In this document: positions 10,513 through 17,167 of the stretch, in pieces
Position numbering within the stretch: the first letter of the stretch is position 1
Layout of the letters: the number at the start of each line of letters is the position of its first letter
From: a virus
Length of the DNA stretch: 40,780 nucleotides
Reading direction: 5' to 3' (one strand)
Virus record (IMG/VR): IMGVR_UViG_3300036770_001870
Location: 1-40,780 of that record
Translations under genes and position numbers: made by a program
Notes under the pieces: generated by a model
Database searches by the model: none
What the model was told of the DNA's origin: nothing
What the model saw: the letters and a program-made list of their open reading frames with translations, nothing else

Positions 10513-11271
10513 GTGGCTGATAAAGATAAAGATCCGCGTACCGTAAAGCTCAAAGGTGTGCGCCTGTCGTTCACCGATGCGCTTACGGAGAAGAAGGCAA
10601 CTTCTTCCGAAAACCCGGATCGCAAGACCCACCACCTGAACGTCATTATTGAAACCACCGGCCCGATGGCGAAGTACGCCGAAGCCAACAAGGCCGCAGT
10701 CGTTGGAGCACTGAAGGCTGCCGGTGAGGCCAAGTGGAAGAATGCGATGGCGTACAAGGACATCCAAGAGGATGCCCCGAAGCGCGTCTGCTTCCGCAAG
10801 GGTGACCGGTTCAAGAACCAGGAAGGCCAGATCTACGCTGGCTACGAAGGCAACTACGCCTTTTCCTGCACCGGCCCCGGTGGCGGTCAGCGGCGCCCGC
10901 GCCTGATCGACCGCTACAAGCGCCTGGTTCTGCCGAAGGGTGAGACGCCGCCTGCAAGCACGAAGTTGGAGATCCGCCATATCGAGGTTGGCGAAATCGA
11001 CAACATCTTCTACTCCGGCTGCTACGCCGACGTTACCGTGTCGTTCTACGGCACCGACAAGGGCTCGCGCGGCATCTTCGCCACGATCGAGATGATCCGC
11101 TCGCACCAGCAGGGCGAACGGATGGCCGGCGGCTACAACTTCGACGACTCGGATCTCGACGATCTCGACGATTTCGATGACGGCGATGATGACTTCGATT
11201 CGCCGTCTGAGTCTTCGAAGCCCGCTGCGGGCAAGAAGGCTTCGTCGATCGACGATGACGACGACATCTAA
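10513..11271 (+). CDS. DUF2815 single-stranded DNA-binding protein
   Basis: A 252-residue protein from GTG 10513 with AAGGA upstream. The N-terminal part (VKLKGVRLSFTDALTEKKA...KTHHLNVIIETTGPMAKYAEANKAAV) and GNYAFSCTGPGGGQRRPRLIDRYKR match the DUF2815 family, which takes the place of an SSB in phage replication modules. The C-terminal 50 residues are acidic: DLDDLDDFDDGDDDFDSP, then a Lys/Ala stretch and SIDDDDDI at the very end. This resembles the acidic protein-docking tail of bacterial SSB, which recruits replication proteins. It likely coats ssDNA for the downstream polymerase and helicase. Confidence 0.85.
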   Translation: MADKDKDPRTVKLKGVRLSFTDALTEKKATSSENPDRKTHHLNVIIETTGPMAKYAEANKAAVVGALKAAGEAKWKNAMAYKDIQEDAPKRVCFRKGDRFKNQEGQIYAGYEGNYAFSCTGPGGGQRRPRLIDRYKRLVLPKGETPPASTKLEIRHIEVGEIDNIFYSGCYADVTVSFYGTDKGSRGIFATIEMIRSHQQGERMAGGYNFDDSDLDDLDDFDDGDDDFDSPSESSKPAAGKKASSIDDDDDI

Positions 11272-11326: not shown

Positions 11327-13330
11327 ATGGCGACAATTATCCTCGACTGCGAGGTCTACTGGAACTTCTTCTATCTCGGCATGAAGCGGGTGGAAGACGG
11401 CCGACGCATCGGCTTCGAGTTCAGCGACCGCACCGATTTTGACCGGGATCACGTTCGCACCATCATGCGGCGCAACCGCACGGTGGGCTTCTTTTCGAAC
11501 AGCTACGACCTGGCGATGATCTACGCCGCACTGAGCGGCAAATCGACCGAAGAGATCAAGCGCGACAGCGACAGGATCATCCTTGGCGACATTCCCCGAT
11601 GGAAGATCGAAGACAAGCTCGGCATCTACGTGCCGGATGTCGATCACATCGACCTGTTCGACACCAATCCGTCAGTTGGACGGAGTCTGAAGTTTATCAA
11701 CGGCTCCATGCACCACAAGCGGCTGCAAGAACTGCCGTATGACCCGTCGTACCGTCTAACCGACGATGAGAAAGACCGCACGATTGAATACTGCCAGTTT
11801 GGCGACATCGACGGCACCGAGCTTCTATTCCACACCCTGAAAGAGCCGATCGAGCTTCGCGAAGCGATGGGCAAGGTCTACGGCGGAATGGATCTCCGCT
11901 CGAAGTCTGACGCGCAGATGGGTGAGGCAATCGCGAAGCAACAGGTCGAATTTACGACCGGCCGGCGCATCAAGAAGAACGATCCGGACACCGGAGTCAG
12001 CTTCCGCTACAAGGTTCCGGAGTGGATGCGCTTCAAGACGCCGTACATGCAGTACGTGCTTGAGCAGATCGCGCAGACCGACTTCTGGATCAAGCATAAC
12101 GGCAAGGTCGAATTCCCTGAGTCCTTCAAGGACTTCAACATCGAATTCGACGGCATGGAATACACCCTCGGGATCGGCGGTCTGCATTCGACAGAGAAGA
12201 ACCGAGCCGTCTTTTCCGATGACGAATACGTGCTGATCGACGCCGACGTGGCGAGTCAGTACCCGTCGATCATCATGAAGCTCGGGCTCTATCCGCCGGC
12301 ACTCGGGCCGCATTTCCAGACTGTCTACAAGGCGCTTATCGACACGCGACTGGCTGCGAAAAAGGCGAAGGACAAGGCGACCGACAAGGGTCTGAAGATT
12401 GCGATCAACGGCATCTACGGAAAGCTCGGCTCGATCTATTCCGCGCTGTTCGCGCCGCACCTGCTCGTTTCGACGACACTGACCGGCCAGCTATCGCTTC
12501 TCATGCTGATCGAGGCCGCGAGCCTGGAAGGCATTCCGGTTGTCTCGGGCAACACCGACGGCGTGCTCTTCCGCTGCCCGCGCTCGAAGTGGGATGGCTT
12601 CGTCGAGCACGATGGCAAGCCGACCGATCGCCTGAAGCCGTCGCCGATCCAAGACATCATCGAATGGTGGGAATCGGTCACATCCTTCAAGCTCGAATTC
12701 GCCGAGTACAAGGCGATCTACAACGAGTCCGTCAACACCTACGTCGCGCTGAAGGCCGACGGCGGCTTCAAGCGTAAGGGTGACCTGGCGAACCACTGGC
12801 GCGAGATCACACCTTGGGGTGCGAAGAACACCGACTATGACCCTTCGCGCGAGGGGTTGAAGAAGAGCCCGCAGTTCACGATCTGCGCCGACGCAGTGCT
12901 CGGCTATCTGCTGCACGGTATCCCTGTCGAGCGCACGATCTATTCCTGCCGCGACGCTCGCGAGTTCCTGCGCGTCACGCAGGTTCAAGGCGGCGCCACC
13001 TGGCACGGCGACTATCTCGGCAAGGTGGTCCGGTTCTATTGGTCGAAGGACATCACCGCGGCGCCGATCCTGCGAAAGATCCCGAACGCTCACGGTACGC
13101 ACGGCCAGGTTCAGAAGAGCGATGGTTGCCGGCCACTCATGAATCTGCCTGACGACTTCGAGGTGCCGGTTGATGTCGATTACGACAGGTACGTCGCCGA
13201 AGCCTATCAGATCTTGGAAGACATCGGTGCCGGGCAATTTGTGAAGGCAAAGCCCTTGCTTGAACACTTCGTTGGTAGTATCTGTGAAATCAACATTCCG
13301 TTGAAAAAGAAACGAAAGAGGGCGGCGTGA
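11327..13330 (+). CDS. Family-B-like phage DNA polymerase
   Basis: A 667-residue protein. The exonuclease part has ILDCEVYWN (Exo I, D-x-E), FFSNSYDLAMI (Exo II) and YCQFGDIDG (Exo III-like). The polymerase motifs are A: DADVASQYPSII near residue 305; B: KIAINGIYGKLGS near 357; C: SGNTDG with Asp411. The family-B signature of motif C is YxDTDS; here the first Asp is Asn409, while the second, catalytic Asp is kept. VNTYVALKADGGFKRKG resembles the KxY motif. The C-terminus is basic ([10 protein letters not shown]). It sits in a module (DUF2800, DUF2815, VRR-NUC, SNF2) that in many phages carries a family-A polymerase instead. Its stop overlaps the methyltransferase GTG. Confidence 0.85.
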   Translation: MATIILDCEVYWNFFYLGMKRVEDGRRIGFEFSDRTDFDRDHVRTIMRRNRTVGFFSNSYDLAMIYAALSGKSTEEIKRDSDRIILGDIPRWKIEDKLGIYVPDVDHIDLFDTNPSVGRSLKFINGSMHHKRLQELPYDPSYRLTDDEKDRTIEYCQFGDIDGTELLFHTLKEPIELREAMGKVYGGMDLRSKSDAQMGEAIAKQQVEFTTGRRIKKNDPDTGVSFRYKVPEWMRFKTPYMQYVLEQIAQTDFWIKHNGKVEFPESFKDFNIEFDGMEYTLGIGGLHSTEKNRAVFSDDEYVLIDADVASQYPSIIMKLGLYPPALGPHFQTVYKALIDTRLAAKKAKDKATDKGLKIAINGIYGKLGSIYSALFAPHLLVSTTLTGQLSLLMLIEAASLEGIPVVSGNTDGVLFRCPRSKWDGFVEHDGKPTDRLKPSPIQDIIEWWESVTSFKLEFAEYKAIYNESVNTYVALKADGGFKRKGDLANHWREITPWGAKNTDYDPSREGLKKSPQFTICADAVLGYLLHGIPVERTIYSCRDAREFLRVTQVQGGATWHGDYLGKVVRFYWSKDITAAPILRKIPNAHGTHGQVQKSDGCRPLMNLPDDFEVPVDVDYDRYVAEAYQILEDIGAGQFVKAKPLLEHFVGSICEINIPLKKKRKRAA

Positions 13331-14847
13331 AACCTTGGGCGCTGTATAACGAGATTGACGAACATGCTGCTGACTGGCTCGAAAACCTTATCCGAATGGG
13401 TCTCATCGCACCCGGTGTCGTCGATCGAAGAAGCATCGAAGACATTCGAGCAGATGACCTGCGAGGATTTCGACAGGTGCATTTCTTCGCTGGCATTGGT
13501 GTTTGGAGTTACGCCCTCCGTCGCGCGGGCTTCACGGATGACGTTGCTCTTTGGACGGGAAGCTGCCCCTGCCAACCTTTCTCCGCGGCGGGCAAAGGAA
13601 CTGGGGTGGATGACGAGCGGCATCTATGGCCAGCGCTCTACTATCTCATCACAGAGTGCCGCCCTGCTCGCTTCTTTGGAGAGCAGGTTGCGAGCGCGGA
13701 CGGCCTCGGTTGGCTCGACCTTGTATTCGATGACATGGAAGCAGCGCGCTACGCCTTCGGGCCGCTTGATACCTGCTCTGCGGGCAGTGGCGCGCCGCAC
13801 ATCAGGCAAAGGCTCAGACTCGCAGCCTACGATCTTAGATCTGCCGCAGGTGGGCTGGCCGACAGCGAGATCGATAGACGGATCGAAGGGGCAGCGAACC
13901 GAACAGGGTATGTTGAACGAACTGGCGCGGAAGGGGCACCTAGACGAACTGCCGAGCGTGGCGGCTCTGACGGGCTGGACGACAGCATCGGCTCGGGACT
14001 GGAAGGACTCCGGAACGGATATTGCGCCGAGACTGGACAACGGGCGAGATCGCTTCGACCAGTTGCCAAGGCAAGCGGTATTGAGTGGGTGGCCGACGAC
14101 GGACGCGAACATGGGGTCTGGTGGACGAGTGCCAGCGGATCAACTGTCTTTGACGCGGGAGAATGGCGGCAAGGTGCAGTTCACGTTGAACCACGCGGCG
14201 GCGCTGTCGGGCTGGACTACTCCGACGACGAACGACGACAACATCTCCCGCCGTTCCTGCGAAGCGATGGAGCGGGAAATCGCGAGGGAGAATCGGGGCG
14301 CAAACTTAGCCATAGACAGCTTTCTGAGCGGATGGCCGACGACGACGAGTTCGAACAATGGAGCGGGAGAGACGCCGGAGGCGCGCTATGCGAAGGGCTT
14401 CGGCCTGAACCTGGCGGATGCGACGAGTTTGACCGGATGGCCGACGACGGGTGCGGAAGACGCGAAGTGGCGCTACTCGACGACGGAAGCCGCGGAGCGT
14501 CGAGCGGAAAGCGGCAAGCAGGTCAGCCTAGAGTGTGCAGCGCTCTTGACGGGCAAAGAGCCGGCCCGACTAACGGTTTTTGGCGAGATGCTGATTGGCT
14601 CTTTTGCCGGGATGGAAAGTGGCGGCCAGTTGAGCCCGGCACATTCCCGCTGGTTGATGGGGCTGCCTTCCGTTTGGGATCTGGCAGCCCCTTTGAAGGC
14701 AAGTCCCGCCAAGGCATGCTCAAAGGCTACGGTAACGCCATCGACGCGGAAGCCACGATCGACTTCCTCGAAGCGTGCCTCGCGTGGGAGCAAGATCGCG
14801 CCCGAGCAGACGCTTTGGTACGCGATTTTGAAGACATTCTTGGATAA
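13327..14847 (+). CDS. C5-cytosine DNA methyltransferase with internal repeat region
   Basis: A 506-residue protein from GTG 13327, overlapping the polymerase stop. Motif I is [18 protein letters not shown]; motif [18 protein letters not shown] with catalytic Cys82; motif VI FFGEQVA; motif [17 protein letters not shown]; motif [16 protein letters not shown] near the end. [15 protein letters not shown] before it is also typical of phage Dcm-like enzymes. Between motifs VIII and IX, where the target-recognition domain belongs, residues about 175-380 hold six loose repeats beginning (L/M/V)AD or LD ([59 protein letters not shown]). The gene ends in DFEDILG. It likely methylates phage DNA against host restriction. 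The whole repeat region is also open in the +1 frame. Confidence 0.85.
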
Positions 14848-14878
14848 TCCACAAGGGGTTGAATATGAACTGGAATGA
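13355..14878 (+). CDS. Overprinted +1-frame protein with GWPT repeats
   Basis: A 507-codon frame lies almost wholly inside the methyltransferase gene. It has protein-like features: [17 protein letters not shown], then [39 protein letters not shown] and [16 protein letters not shown]. Six repeats follow ([66 protein letters not shown]), then [20 protein letters not shown] and [21 protein letters not shown] remember closely similar sequences (MTWKxxxTPSGR...RRTSD, GWPTP repeats, [11 protein letters not shown]) in many phage genomes, usually annotated as hypothetical or as methyltransferase. The start is uncertain: 13355, or ATG 13538 where the conserved part seems to begin. It ends 13 bases into the deaminase gene. 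Function unknown. Confidence 0.6.
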
Positions 14879-15326
14879 GTATCATCTCGGGTTCGCCGAG
14901 CACGCAGCCCTGAAGTCCAAGGACTCGACGAAGGTTGGCGCGGTGATCGTCGGCCCGCTCAACGAGATCCGGGCGACCGGCTTCAACGGCCCGCCGATCG
15001 GCGTCCACGAGTCTGAAGCTCGGCGCGAGCGGCCGACGAAGTACCTGTTCGCCTCTCACGCAGAAGCCAATGCAATCGCCTTCGCTGCTCGCAATGGGGT
15101 GCCGCTCGCCGGCTGCTCGATCTACGTGACGCACCCGCCCTGCGCGGCCTGCACCCGCTCGATCATCCAGGCCGGCATCAAAAAGGTCTTCATCGGCAAG
15201 GGTGAACTCAGCGCTGCCGGTGGATGGGAAGCCGACATCCTCGCATCGCGCGAGATGATGGCTGAAGCCGGCGTGCGCGTCGTCTGCTTGCCGTGCGACG
15301 AGCAGCCGGAGCTTCCGCTTGGCTGA
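14865..15326 (+). CDS. Deoxycytidylate (dCMP) deaminase
   Basis: A 153-residue protein. ATG 14865 has AAGGGG seven bases upstream; a TTG at 14859 is also in frame but less likely. The zinc and catalytic signature is complete: HAEANAI (His ligand and Glu proton shuttle) and [16 protein letters not shown] (two Cys ligands). The N-terminal part, [15 protein letters not shown] and [11 protein letters not shown], is also typical. The enzyme converts dCMP to dUMP, feeding dTTP synthesis for phage replication. No thymidylate synthase is seen in the window. It overlaps the next gene by eight bases. Confidence 0.9.
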
Positions 15327-15606
15327 AATCTCGGACGTTCAGAACCCGATCGTTTCGTATGCGAAACAAAACGGCTGGTTCGTTCGGCGCGTGCAGTGGA
15401 TCGGCCGCCACGGTGCTCCGGACCTGGTTCTGATCAAGCTCGGCGTCACGGTGTGGATCGAGGCGAAACGTGAAGGCAAAGACGCTGAGATCCACCAGAA
15501 GCGCGAGCACGAGCGCATGAGGAAGAAGGGCGCCCTGGTCTACGTGGTGGACCGCGCCGAAGACGGATACCGAATTCTGGATCGACATGACCCCGACGCT
15601 ATTTGA
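15319..15606 (+). CDS. VRR-NUC domain nuclease
   Basis: A 95-residue single-domain protein. Start TTG 15319 has CGGAG seven bases upstream, and there is no ATG near. GAPDLVLIKLG...VWIEAKREGK gives the D...ExK catalytic motif of the VRR-NUC branch of the PD-(D/E)XK superfamily, and HQKREHERMRKKGALVYVV the conserved C-terminal helix and strand. Stand-alone phage VRR-NUC proteins are usually encoded beside a SNF2 helicase, as here. Known family members cut branched or flapped DNA; a role in resolving replication or recombination intermediates is likely. Confidence 0.9.
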   Translation: MAEISDVQNPIVSYAKQNGWFVRRVQWIGRHGAPDLVLIKLGVTVWIEAKREGKDAEIHQKREHERMRKKGALVYVVDRAEDGYRILDRHDPDAI

Positions 15607-17167
15607 GACGTTCGTCAAAGACTGCCTGAAACTTCCACTGTCTGTTGACACGGTCAACAAGATCGAGGATGCGCCGACGGTTCTCGAAGTGCTGTTCGGC
15701 GAGATCTTCAAGCCGCAGCAGCCGGCGGTTTCGGGCAAGCGGCCGCGCTCGATGATGCGCTCGTATCAGAGCTACCTCTCCGACTGCATCGTCACCATGC
15801 CCTACCTGCTCGGTGCAGCCGAGATGAGCCTCGGCAAGACCGGTGCGACGCTCGACGGCGTTCGCCGGCTGCTGCGCGCTGATCCGACGCTGCGCTGCCT
15901 GATCGTCGGGCCGCTTGAAGTGGCGAAGACCACCTGGCCGGATGAGATCGCCGAATGGGAGCACCTTCAGGATCTCACCTACACCGTCGTCGTCGGCGAC
16001 GCGAAAGAGCGCGAGGCTGCGCTTGCGGTCGATGCCGATCTCACCATTATCAATCGCGAGAACCTGCAATGGCTTTGGCAGCACATCCGGGGTGAGCGCG
16101 GCTGGCGCTGGCAAATCCTCGTGTACGATGAGTCTAGCCGCCTTAAGGGTTTCAACTTCAGGACCGCCAACACCAAGAAAGATCCGAAGACCGGGCAGAA
16201 GGTCTCGAAGAAGCCGACGCTCACCGAGTTCGGTGTCCTGGCGCAAGCCCGCAAAAAGCTGACGAACGTAATCGAGCTATCCGGCACGCCCGGCCCGAAC
16301 GGCGTCTTCGATCTCGGCGGCCAGATCTACCTTCTCGATCAGGGCGAGCGACTCGGCCGCAACAAGACGAACTTCACCAATAACTTCTTCGACACCAACC
16401 CGTTCAGTCACGAGATCAAGCCGAAGCCAGGCGCCAAAGAGCAGATCATGTCCAAGGTCAAGGACATCATGATCGGCCTACGCTCGCAGGATTACATCGA
16501 TCTGCCGCCGCAGGTGTTCAATCCGATTTGGGTGAACCTGTCGTCGCAGCACATGAAGCAATACAAGGACTTCGAGCGCACCCTGGTTTCGGAAGTCTAT
16601 GACGTGGAAGCCGTGTCCCGCGGCGTCCTGACGAACAAGCTGCTGCAATTCGCGAACGGCGGGCTCTATCGAGTCGACGAAGATGTCTATCCGCCCGTGC
16701 GCGAGACAATCGCCATTCATGACGCGAAGCTGCGTGCCCTTGAGCGCGTGATCGAAGAAGCCGCCGGCAATAACGTCCTGGTGGCCTACAGCTTCCAGTT
16801 CGACAAGCAGCGAATCAAGAAGCGCTTCCCGCAGGCGACATTCTTCGACGAAGAGCCCAACTTCGTGAAGAAGTGGAATGAGGGGAAGATCGGCATCGGC
16901 GTGGCGCATCCGGCATCGATCGGCCACGGCCTGAACCTGCAACACGGCGGCCATATCCAGTGCTGGTTCGGCTGCACCTGGTCGCTCGAATATTGGGATC
17001 AGTTCAACCGCCGTCTCGCGCGGCCGGGGCAAAAGAACCACTCGGTCTTCATTCACGTCATCCTCGCGCGCGGCACGATGGATGAGCAGCAGTATGCCGC
17101 CTTGCAGAGCAAGGGTGCGAGCCAGGACGACATCATGAATGCGGTGAGGGTGCGCTTGGCGGCTTGA
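15587..17167 (+). CDS. SNF2-family DNA helicase/translocase
   Basis: A 526-residue protein whose ATG 15587 overlaps the VRR-NUC gene. Motif I is AEMSLGKTGATLDG, motif Ia ends CLIVGPLEVAKTTWP, motif II is LVYDESSRLKG (DESS in place of DEAH), motif III ELSGTPGPNG, and motif VI QFNRRLARPGQKNHS. These are the standard SNF2-type motifs of phage helicases that accompany VRR-NUC. The protein should translocate on duplex DNA using ATP. An operator-like site (15633-15649) lies inside codons 16-21. It is the last gene of the rightward early operon, and a long non-coding region follows. Confidence 0.9.
   Translation: MTPTLFETFVKDCLKLPLSVDTVNKIEDAPTVLEVLFGEIFKPQQPAVSGKRPRSMMRSYQSYLSDCIVTMPYLLGAAEMSLGKTGATLDGVRRLLRADPTLRCLIVGPLEVAKTTWPDEIAEWEHLQDLTYTVVVGDAKEREAALAVDADLTIINRENLQWLWQHIRGERGWRWQILVYDESSRLKGFNFRTANTKKDPKTGQKVSKKPTLTEFGVLAQARKKLTNVIELSGTPGPNGVFDLGGQIYLLDQGERLGRNKTNFTNNFFDTNPFSHEIKPKPGAKEQIMSKVKDIMIGLRSQDYIDLPPQVFNPIWVNLSSQHMKQYKDFERTLVSEVYDVEAVSRGVLTNKLLQFANGGLYRVDEDVYPPVRETIAIHDAKLRALERVIEEAAGNNVLVAYSFQFDKQRIKKRFPQATFFDEEPNFVKKWNEGKIGIGVAHPASIGHGLNLQHGGHIQCWFGCTWSLEYWDQFNRRLARPGQKNHSVFIHVILARGTMDEQQYAALQSKGASQDDIMNAVRVRLAA

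Follow-up and report, generated by a model that had tools for sequence, protein, structure and literature searches.

A phage cytosine methyltransferase gene that probably encodes two subunits in overlapping frames, with putative tandem target-recognition cassettes in the +1 frame

The sequence analyzed here, hereafter the window, is a 40,780-nucleotide (nt) stretch of viral DNA from IMG/VR record IMGVR_UViG_3300036770_001870 (locus L007 in our numbering), which carries two long open reading frames (ORFs) lying over one another on the plus strand. An earlier note, drawn up from the letters alone, had described them as a cytosine methyltransferase gene with a second long protein in its +1 frame, and this pair of 506 and 507 codons is real. 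We call the product of frame 0 alpha and that of the +1 frame beta. They overlap at 13355-14847, i.e. over 1493 nt, and the longest open run in the remaining frame is only 39 codons. The features of the locus are as follows, with lengths in amino acids (aa) and C5 for cytosine-5.

13327-14847, plus strand: alpha ORF, frame 0, GTG start, 506 aa; putative catalytic subunit with C5 methyltransferase motifs I-VIII and X.
13355-14878, plus strand: beta ORF as opened by the first TTG, +1 frame, 507 aa; matches phrog_31772 and phrog_1008.
13454-13456, plus strand: likely ATG of beta, from its correspondence to one of the recurrent ATG positions of the start blocks; it would give a 474 aa product (13454-14875).
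13345-13437, plus strand: alpha motifs II/III, from profile domains 1-2, neither significant alone; residue 3 of the alpha model aligns with M.HhaI residue 34.
13474-13500, plus strand: alpha motif I (HFFAGIG), from the alignment; alpha-constrained.
13567-13584, plus strand: alpha motif IV with the catalytic Cys (PCQPFS), from the alignment.
13678-13689, plus strand: alpha motif VI (GEQV), from the alignment; mixed constraint.
13789-13812, plus strand: alpha motif VIII (GAPHIRQR), from the alignment.
13577-13813, plus strand: conserved N-terminal part of beta (STLYSMTWK ... RRTSGKG), from the beta-family alignment; overlaps alpha motifs IV-VIII.
13853-13972, plus strand: cassette 1, beta frame; nearest relative in L201 (57% aa identity).
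13973-14086, plus strand: cassette 2, beta frame, RDWKDSG type, a member of the largest class; L181 (76% aa), L103 (74% aa).
14087-14209, plus strand: cassette 3, beta frame; L100 (85% aa).
14210-14329, plus strand: cassette 4, beta frame, unclustered; best match L100, only 40% aa.
14330-14434, plus strand: cassette 5, beta frame; L235 (80% aa).
14435-14560, plus strand: cassette 6, beta frame; L006 (93% aa), L140 (77% aa), L012 (69% aa).
13853-14560, plus strand: alpha reading of the cassette DNA (about alpha residues 176-412), an open and unconserved passenger, kept open, with model confidence mostly below 50.
14578-14679, plus strand: block constrained in both frames by the codon-position analysis; its alpha reading begins FWRDADW.
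14630-14677, plus strand: motif IX-like segment of beta, from the beta alignment; directly upstream of alpha's motif X.
14722-14742, plus strand: alpha motif X (KGYGNAI), from the alignment; alpha-constrained.

The two frames are shared by hundreds of phage and prophage loci and are not a product of chance. The +1 frame of the window is open for 504 codons, a length reached by none of 2000 shuffles of synonymous alpha codons (mean 232, maximum 495). The same comparison was made at 80 IMG/VR loci ranked on their alpha match only, the best 80 of 579 confirmed. Their +1 frame is open on average for 310 of 347 codons, where shuffles give 151, and in 71 of them at most 10 of 200 shuffles attain the observed run. 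Judged by profile coverage, both frames are intact in 73 of these loci, alpha is broken and beta intact in 3, both are broken in 1, and 3 are cut by contig ends. The combination that the earlier note had named as fatal to its proposal, a second frame broken by stops beside an intact methyltransferase, was looked for and occurs in none of the 80. In a larger set that includes duplicates and some contigs twice, the best alpha and beta matches stand in the +1 relation, with an overlap of at least 469 nt, at all 258 loci other than the window (L001-L259 minus L007). The 160 loci of this set that were selected by beta (L100-L259) all have an alpha match. In four of the 258 (L014, L030, L052 and L206), an insertion or deletion additionally joins pieces of alpha and beta in one ORF.

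The alpha protein belongs to the C5 cytosine methyltransferases (PF00145, E 7.3e-8; phrog_363, E 1.6e-68). It has motifs I, IV, VI and VIII together with an M.HhaI-like catalytic fold: the alpha family profile matches M.HhaI with an E value of about 1e-16, motifs IV-VIII being the best stretch, and the AlphaFold model of the window's alpha aligns to M.HhaI with Z 12.7 over 161 residues at 2.9 Å. The order of its motifs is locally permuted relative to that of M.HhaI, with II/III before I (13345-13500). The note had credited one frame with all the methyltransferase motifs, which does not hold: motif IX was not seen in alpha when the alpha-family alignment was inspected by eye, and a motif IX-like segment lies instead in beta, just upstream of alpha's motif X. 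The putative target-recognition region and motif IX are both in the +1 frame and not in the alpha chain. As a side observation on this family, an annotated methylase of 2496 nt, gp44 of EBPR siphovirus 2 (L012:1467-3987), is an ORF that covers the alpha profile at about twice the usual length and lacks the PCQP(F/Y)S pattern.

Beta matches phrog_31772 (E 2.2e-33) and phrog_1008 (E 8.3e-26). Both families are labelled DNA methyltransferase, so that parts of beta are already labelled in a public family library; the label gives neither a role nor a relation to the overlapping frame. The window's beta matched no Pfam or NCBIfam family. We read its LNPxxxxWLMG segment as a candidate motif IX because of its position and of actinophage forms in which EWMMGFPPGWVTS and EWLMGLPRGWVTD stand before motif X within one frame; the segment adjoining motif X in such one-frame forms reads EWMMG.P.GWVT. 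A HMMER match of this region to M.HhaI is in register and insignificant. The motif IX-like segment thus belongs to beta and lies shortly before motif X of alpha, which makes beta resemble an enzyme subunit and not the modifier or inhibitor that had also been considered.

The start of beta was analyzed in 202 distinct start blocks, including that of the window. The alpha sequence DERSIEDV embeds what appears to be the beta start signal. Its Arg codon is AGG in 72/199 cases, against 489/7132 Arg codons elsewhere, and its Asp codon is GAT in 148/190, against 1998/5233. A Shine-Dalgarno-like string lies upstream in 65 of the 141 blocks that have the main ATG and in 1 of the 61 that do not; none of the four main ATG positions is present in 12 of the 202. 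This suggests that beta has its own internal start in many relatives.

Downstream of its conserved N-terminal part, beta contains GWxT units at 13853, 13973, 14087, 14210, 14330 and 14435, which alpha reads, in this order, as LADS, LDDS, VADD, LDYS, MADD and MADD (a GWMT at 13604 in beta is not a cassette). The six repeats noticed earlier, and the double reading of the string near GGCTGGCCGAC as GWPT in beta and as LAD, VAD or MAD in alpha, are therefore as described. Their description as one nucleotide unit is not: only about 14 nt recur at each cassette boundary, and the 35-42-residue units between them differ. Because the six cassettes differ and have their own relatives elsewhere, the array is made of different modules, and we rejected the idea that the repeats are copies of one unit. 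The cassette counts start from 259 beta proteins, that of the window and those of the 258 other loci, of which 38 without the motif IX pattern and 14 without the WK pattern (2 lacked both) were excluded. Merging exact duplicates left 185 unique genes, window included, 4 of which yielded no cassette. Several distinct modules stand at the variable region, as in multispecific enzymes: these genes hold 612 cassettes, with a median length of 37 aa and 1-6 per gene, and arrays of six are found in 3 genes, among them the window. In phage N15, whose gene pair is shorter, two cassettes were delimited.

Cassette classes, defined by single linkage at 50% identity and thus able to chain, are found at several ordinal positions, and there are 153 different orders among 181 genes. 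One of these loose classes is held more than once in 53 genes. The single near-identical tandem pair, and the only same-length pair within a gene above 70% nt identity, is formed by the adjacent cassettes 3 and 4 of L156 (98% nt identical), likely a recent tandem duplication read in both frames. The proposal that duplicating a DNA unit would extend both proteins at once is therefore supported by L156, where a unit could be added to both frames in this way, but it does not describe the window, whose cassettes are not copies. Recent exchange between divergent backgrounds was considered as direct evidence of reassortment and set aside as weak, since it is seen in only 2 of 145 pairs; reassortment is instead inferred from the diversity of orders.

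Selection on the two frames was followed through substitutions by codon position and the identity in each frame, using each sequence once (independent pairs); the motif IV block comprised 211 sequences. Changes fall at alpha position 3 in 63% of cases at motifs II/III, 65% at I, 59% at IV and 58% at X, beta being better conserved than alpha in 0/91, 0/100, 2/104 and 2/88 pairs, respectively. At motif VIII, alpha position 3 takes 57% of the changes and alpha position 1 takes 35%, with beta better conserved in 4/95 pairs. The motif VI block is mixed (beta better in 26/103), and so is the motif IX block, where changes are spread 40/24/36% over the codon positions and beta is better conserved in 42/83. 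In the cassettes, beta position 3 accounts for 64% of changes, and the beta frame is the more conserved of the two in 142/142 independent pairs. Over all pairs the changes are distributed 23/11/65% over beta positions 1/2/3, the identity is 0.86 in beta against 0.51 in the alpha reading, and beta is better conserved in 759/759. Hence, joint constraint on the two frames is found mainly near motifs VI, VIII and IX, and the cassettes are conserved in beta only. Because the codon-position pattern changes in this way along the gene, the greater part of the overlap is not under double sequence constraint, and the cassettes belong to beta. There are indeed two selected proteins, as had been supposed, and the methyltransferase frame is not the only one under selection; selection does not, however, act on both frames everywhere, alpha being an open passenger across the cassettes. 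Alpha remains open through them in 179 of 180 genes, when 27.5 are expected from beta-codon shuffles, and in none of 200 such shuffles of the window's cassette block; the third frame is open in 4 genes, with 4.3 expected. Alpha would be kept open there because it must reach motif X. The passenger reading agrees with the predicted local distance difference test (pLDDT) scores of the alpha model, which are mostly high at residues 1-170 (with a dip at 84-95) and 461-505 and mostly below 50 at 191-412. The alpha reading of the repeats, unconserved and modelled with low confidence, was rejected as the true target-recognition domain.

By sequence, similar arrangements occur in phages of very different bacteria. 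Relatives from Paenibacillus, Stenotrophomonas and actinophages combine the canonical motif order with a +1 beta; Paenibacillus-type alphas have I, II/III and IV in that order, and their betas carry WPTP cassettes; most of the betas printed end like LNPxWVEWLMGF. We counted the frame of cassette-like units after motif VIII with a loose pattern at non-redundant loci, starting from 80 loci of the window family, 80 from an actinophage query and 154 from a Paenibacillus query, and leaving out near-duplicates (28, 10 and 43) and loci without alpha motifs I-VIII in one ORF (1, 3 and 3). The units are in the +1 frame alone at 48/51 loci of the window family (1 tie, 1 none, 1 frame 0), 60/67 actinophage-query loci (4 ties, 2 frame 0, 1 frame 2) and 99/108 Paenibacillus-query loci (6 ties, 1 none, 1 frame 0, 1 frame 2). 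Of the 108 Paenibacillus-query loci, 76 have the motif IX pattern in +1 alone and 1 has it in both frames, and at 31 it was not found; at the 67 actinophage-query loci it is in alpha's frame at 27, in +1 at 13, and was not found at 27. The cassettes themselves are shared: in a blastp search with 576 distinct window-family cassettes (E up to 0.001, near-duplicate loci included), some of them match the +1 frame of 28/77 actinophage-query and 108/148 Paenibacillus-query loci, with identities that reach 95% over 22 aa and 91% over 33 aa. Frame-2 matches occur at 0/77 and 1/148.

Some loci divide the parts differently. In L298 and L283 the cassettes, motif IX and motif X are all in +1, behind a short alpha that stops past motif VIII. 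In L300, L316 and L276 one unit is in +1 and further LPTP units lie in frame 0 between motif VIII and motifs IX-X; one frame-0 cassette of L300 shares 79% identity with a +1 cassette of L298. Finally, L422 and L425 (1461-2418), two contigs that carry the same sequence, have a single frame running from motifs I-VIII through the cassettes to motif IX, beside a shortened +1 beta, and no motif X was seen there. It is chiefly because these in-frame cases place them between motifs VIII and IX that we take the cassettes to be target-recognition units. The earlier note's suggestions that the repeats sit where the target-recognition domain should be, and that the partner could modify target choice, are both supported.

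Taken together, these observations lead us to put at roughly 0.78 the probability that the two subunits of a split cytosine-5 DNA methyltransferase of the M.EcoHK31I type are encoded by the same stretch of DNA, with beta supplying motif IX and the recognition cassettes. Frame 0 would give alpha, with the S-adenosylmethionine (AdoMet)-binding and catalytic domain (motifs I-VIII) joined to motif X by a long linker that is not conserved. Beta would be made from the +1 frame, from its own internal start, and would comprise an N-terminal segment followed by 1-6 tandem cassettes and by motif IX. The two chains may come together as a two-domain enzyme like M.HhaI, with beta as the target-recognizing small domain. 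Each cassette probably recognizes its own short DNA sequence, in which case several cassettes would mean several sites protected from host restriction; such protection is the usual role of these phage enzymes. The variety of arrays suggests that cassettes are gained, lost and reassorted, and because alpha is a mere passenger across them, specificity could evolve without touching the catalytic protein as long as no stop arises in alpha.

Several observations weigh against this interpretation. None of 18 beta members scanned has a Pfam family, the beta profile matches no solved chain up to E 1, and the model of a natural beta (L170) is poor (pLDDT 65, predicted template modeling score 0.31) and has no structural match above Z 3.0. 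The ATG at 13454 in the window lacks a good Shine-Dalgarno sequence, 76 of the 141 blocks with the main ATG have no Shine-Dalgarno-like string, and the p values for the start signal are too small because the sequences are related, even if the contrast remains large. Frame-0 matches to the cassettes are few (1/77 actinophage-query and 2/148 Paenibacillus-query loci). L361 also joins motifs I-VIII, cassettes and IX in frame but may be a damaged gene; its source genome contains other copies that match the query over a greater length. Among the 145 cassette pairs with at least 85% nt identity, only 2 are in genes whose alpha DNA is less than 75% identical, both at different array positions. In 9 of the 80 alpha-ranked loci the openness of +1 is by itself unremarkable (more than 10 of 200 shuffles attain the observed run). 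Finally, the target-recognition domain of M.EcoHK31I was predicted in the larger chain, according to an excerpt of its description (PMC3404938); this would speak against placing that domain in beta, should the two enzymes be homologous.

Among the alternatives, an enzyme of two subunits with a single target, the extra cassettes being structural repeats or decayed copies, appears unlikely to us. It is helped by the fact that multi-specificity is inferred from modularity, by a cassette number that varies from 1 to 6, and by the genes that hold one loose class twice. Yet the L156 pair is the only one of its kind, the cassettes of a gene resemble others elsewhere, as a set they are under purifying selection in the beta frame, and Bacillus phages offer precedents for target-recognition domains in tandem that give several targets (PMC8936443, in the part available). 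We give little credence to the view of beta as an accessory protein, such as an anti-restriction factor, a regulator or a chaperone of the enzyme. The lack of a matching solved fold and an N-terminal segment without nameable counterpart in canonical enzymes speak for it, whereas the cassettes occupy the place of the target-recognition domain, alpha shows no motif IX, L300/L316/L276 and L422/L425 carry such cassettes in frame between motifs VIII and IX, and all 160 beta-selected loci have an alpha match. Still less probable is a single polypeptide made by programmed frameshifts, from frame 0 for motifs I-VIII to +1 for the cassettes and motif IX and back for motif X. Crossing frames at motif VIII does yield a continuous methyltransferase-like order, which a few natural genes have from I-VIII through the cassettes to IX in one frame. 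However, the beta start signal lies far upstream in many relatives, the conserved N-terminal part of beta overlaps motifs IV-VIII, the block of motif IX is conserved in both frames, and alpha stays open across the cassettes in 179/180 genes, which two obligatory shifts would make needless. That beta is a chance open frame arising from alpha's composition and codon use has a negligible probability and was rejected, for even if high G+C lengthens open frames and nine loci are not individually unusual, the window shuffles, the purifying selection on the beta frame and the 73 of 80 loci with both frames intact, none having beta alone broken, say otherwise.

The preferred reading, a split enzyme with its recognition array in the overlapping frame, has known counterparts for its parts. 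The beta chain of M.EcoHK31I is reportedly read from an alternative frame inside the gene of its alpha chain. In this enzyme (YGGCCR), motifs I-VIII and X and a predicted target-recognition domain are on the larger chain, and motif IX is on the smaller one (PMC3404938, in excerpt). The likeness to the window, with motifs I-VIII and X in alpha and IX in beta, is one of motif layout, matched from that description. The difference is that up to six tandem cassettes, selected in the beta frame, are present in the window family; if M.EcoHK31I is homologous, the placement of its target-recognition domain should be revisited. M.AquI, another two-polypeptide C5 methyltransferase, resembles L298 and L283, in which the cassettes, IX and X follow the short alpha in +1; it differs from the window, where motif X remains in alpha. 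The multispecific enzymes of Bacillus phages are said to be single chains in one frame. Those of SPR and H2 have tandem target-recognition domains with several targets (PMC8936443, in part), a likeness to the recognition array of the window, which differs in lying in the +1 frame. The m5C (5-methylcytosine) enzymes of relaxed specificity from Paracoccus prophages (PMC3925955) were set aside as support for multi-specificity, being about 700 aa long and having other relatives (PMC5537653), as far as the available parts of these papers go. Split C5 enzymes of two polypeptides and tandem multi-target arrays are thus already known, and no description of an overprinted target-recognition cassette array in +1 was found in the retrieved text of the open-access papers searched.

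Around the gene pair, the window encodes an Enc34-type single-stranded DNA-binding protein upstream (10513-11271, PF10991) and, downstream, a deoxycytidylate (dCMP)-deaminase-like gene (14859-15326, PF00383) and a SNF2-type helicase (15587-17167, PF00176). The 667-aa ORF at 11327-13330 and the 95-aa ORF at 15319-15606 have no Pfam match at E 0.001. In L004:3052-5506, beta and the helicase-like reading that follows it form one unbroken open frame of 818 codons.

The locus may exemplify a widespread class of phage cytosine methyltransferases, an extension that we favor with less confidence than the split enzyme itself. In this class, recognition modules would be written in the +1 frame of the enzyme's own catalytic gene as a reassorting cassette code, with the catalytic frame as a stop-free passenger, so that specificity would evolve almost independently; the same cassettes would serve different motif orders and split points and could move between frames, giving single-frame forms. 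To our knowledge, well-supported same-strand overlaps of such length are rare; this one is conserved at phage and prophage loci numbering in the hundreds, and its two frames would divide one enzyme. This suggests a role for phage proteins annotated as hypothetical or merely as methyltransferase. It also suggests that annotation often drops one of the subunits: both frames are listed in 3 of the 22 phage records fetched (L013, L017, L267), and in L015 and L260 the sole methyltransferase coding sequence (CDS) is the beta frame. The doubly annotated pairs, with both frames as CDS, are those of phage K1G, PhiXhv-28 and Paenibacillus phage Genki, whose feature tables, as shown, give no explanation. 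If the reading is true, the list of cassettes of a phage would allow one to predict the host restriction sites against which it is protected, and cassettes with known targets would make modular 5-methylcytosine writers. The gene pair would also be a clean system for the study of how two frames share selection.
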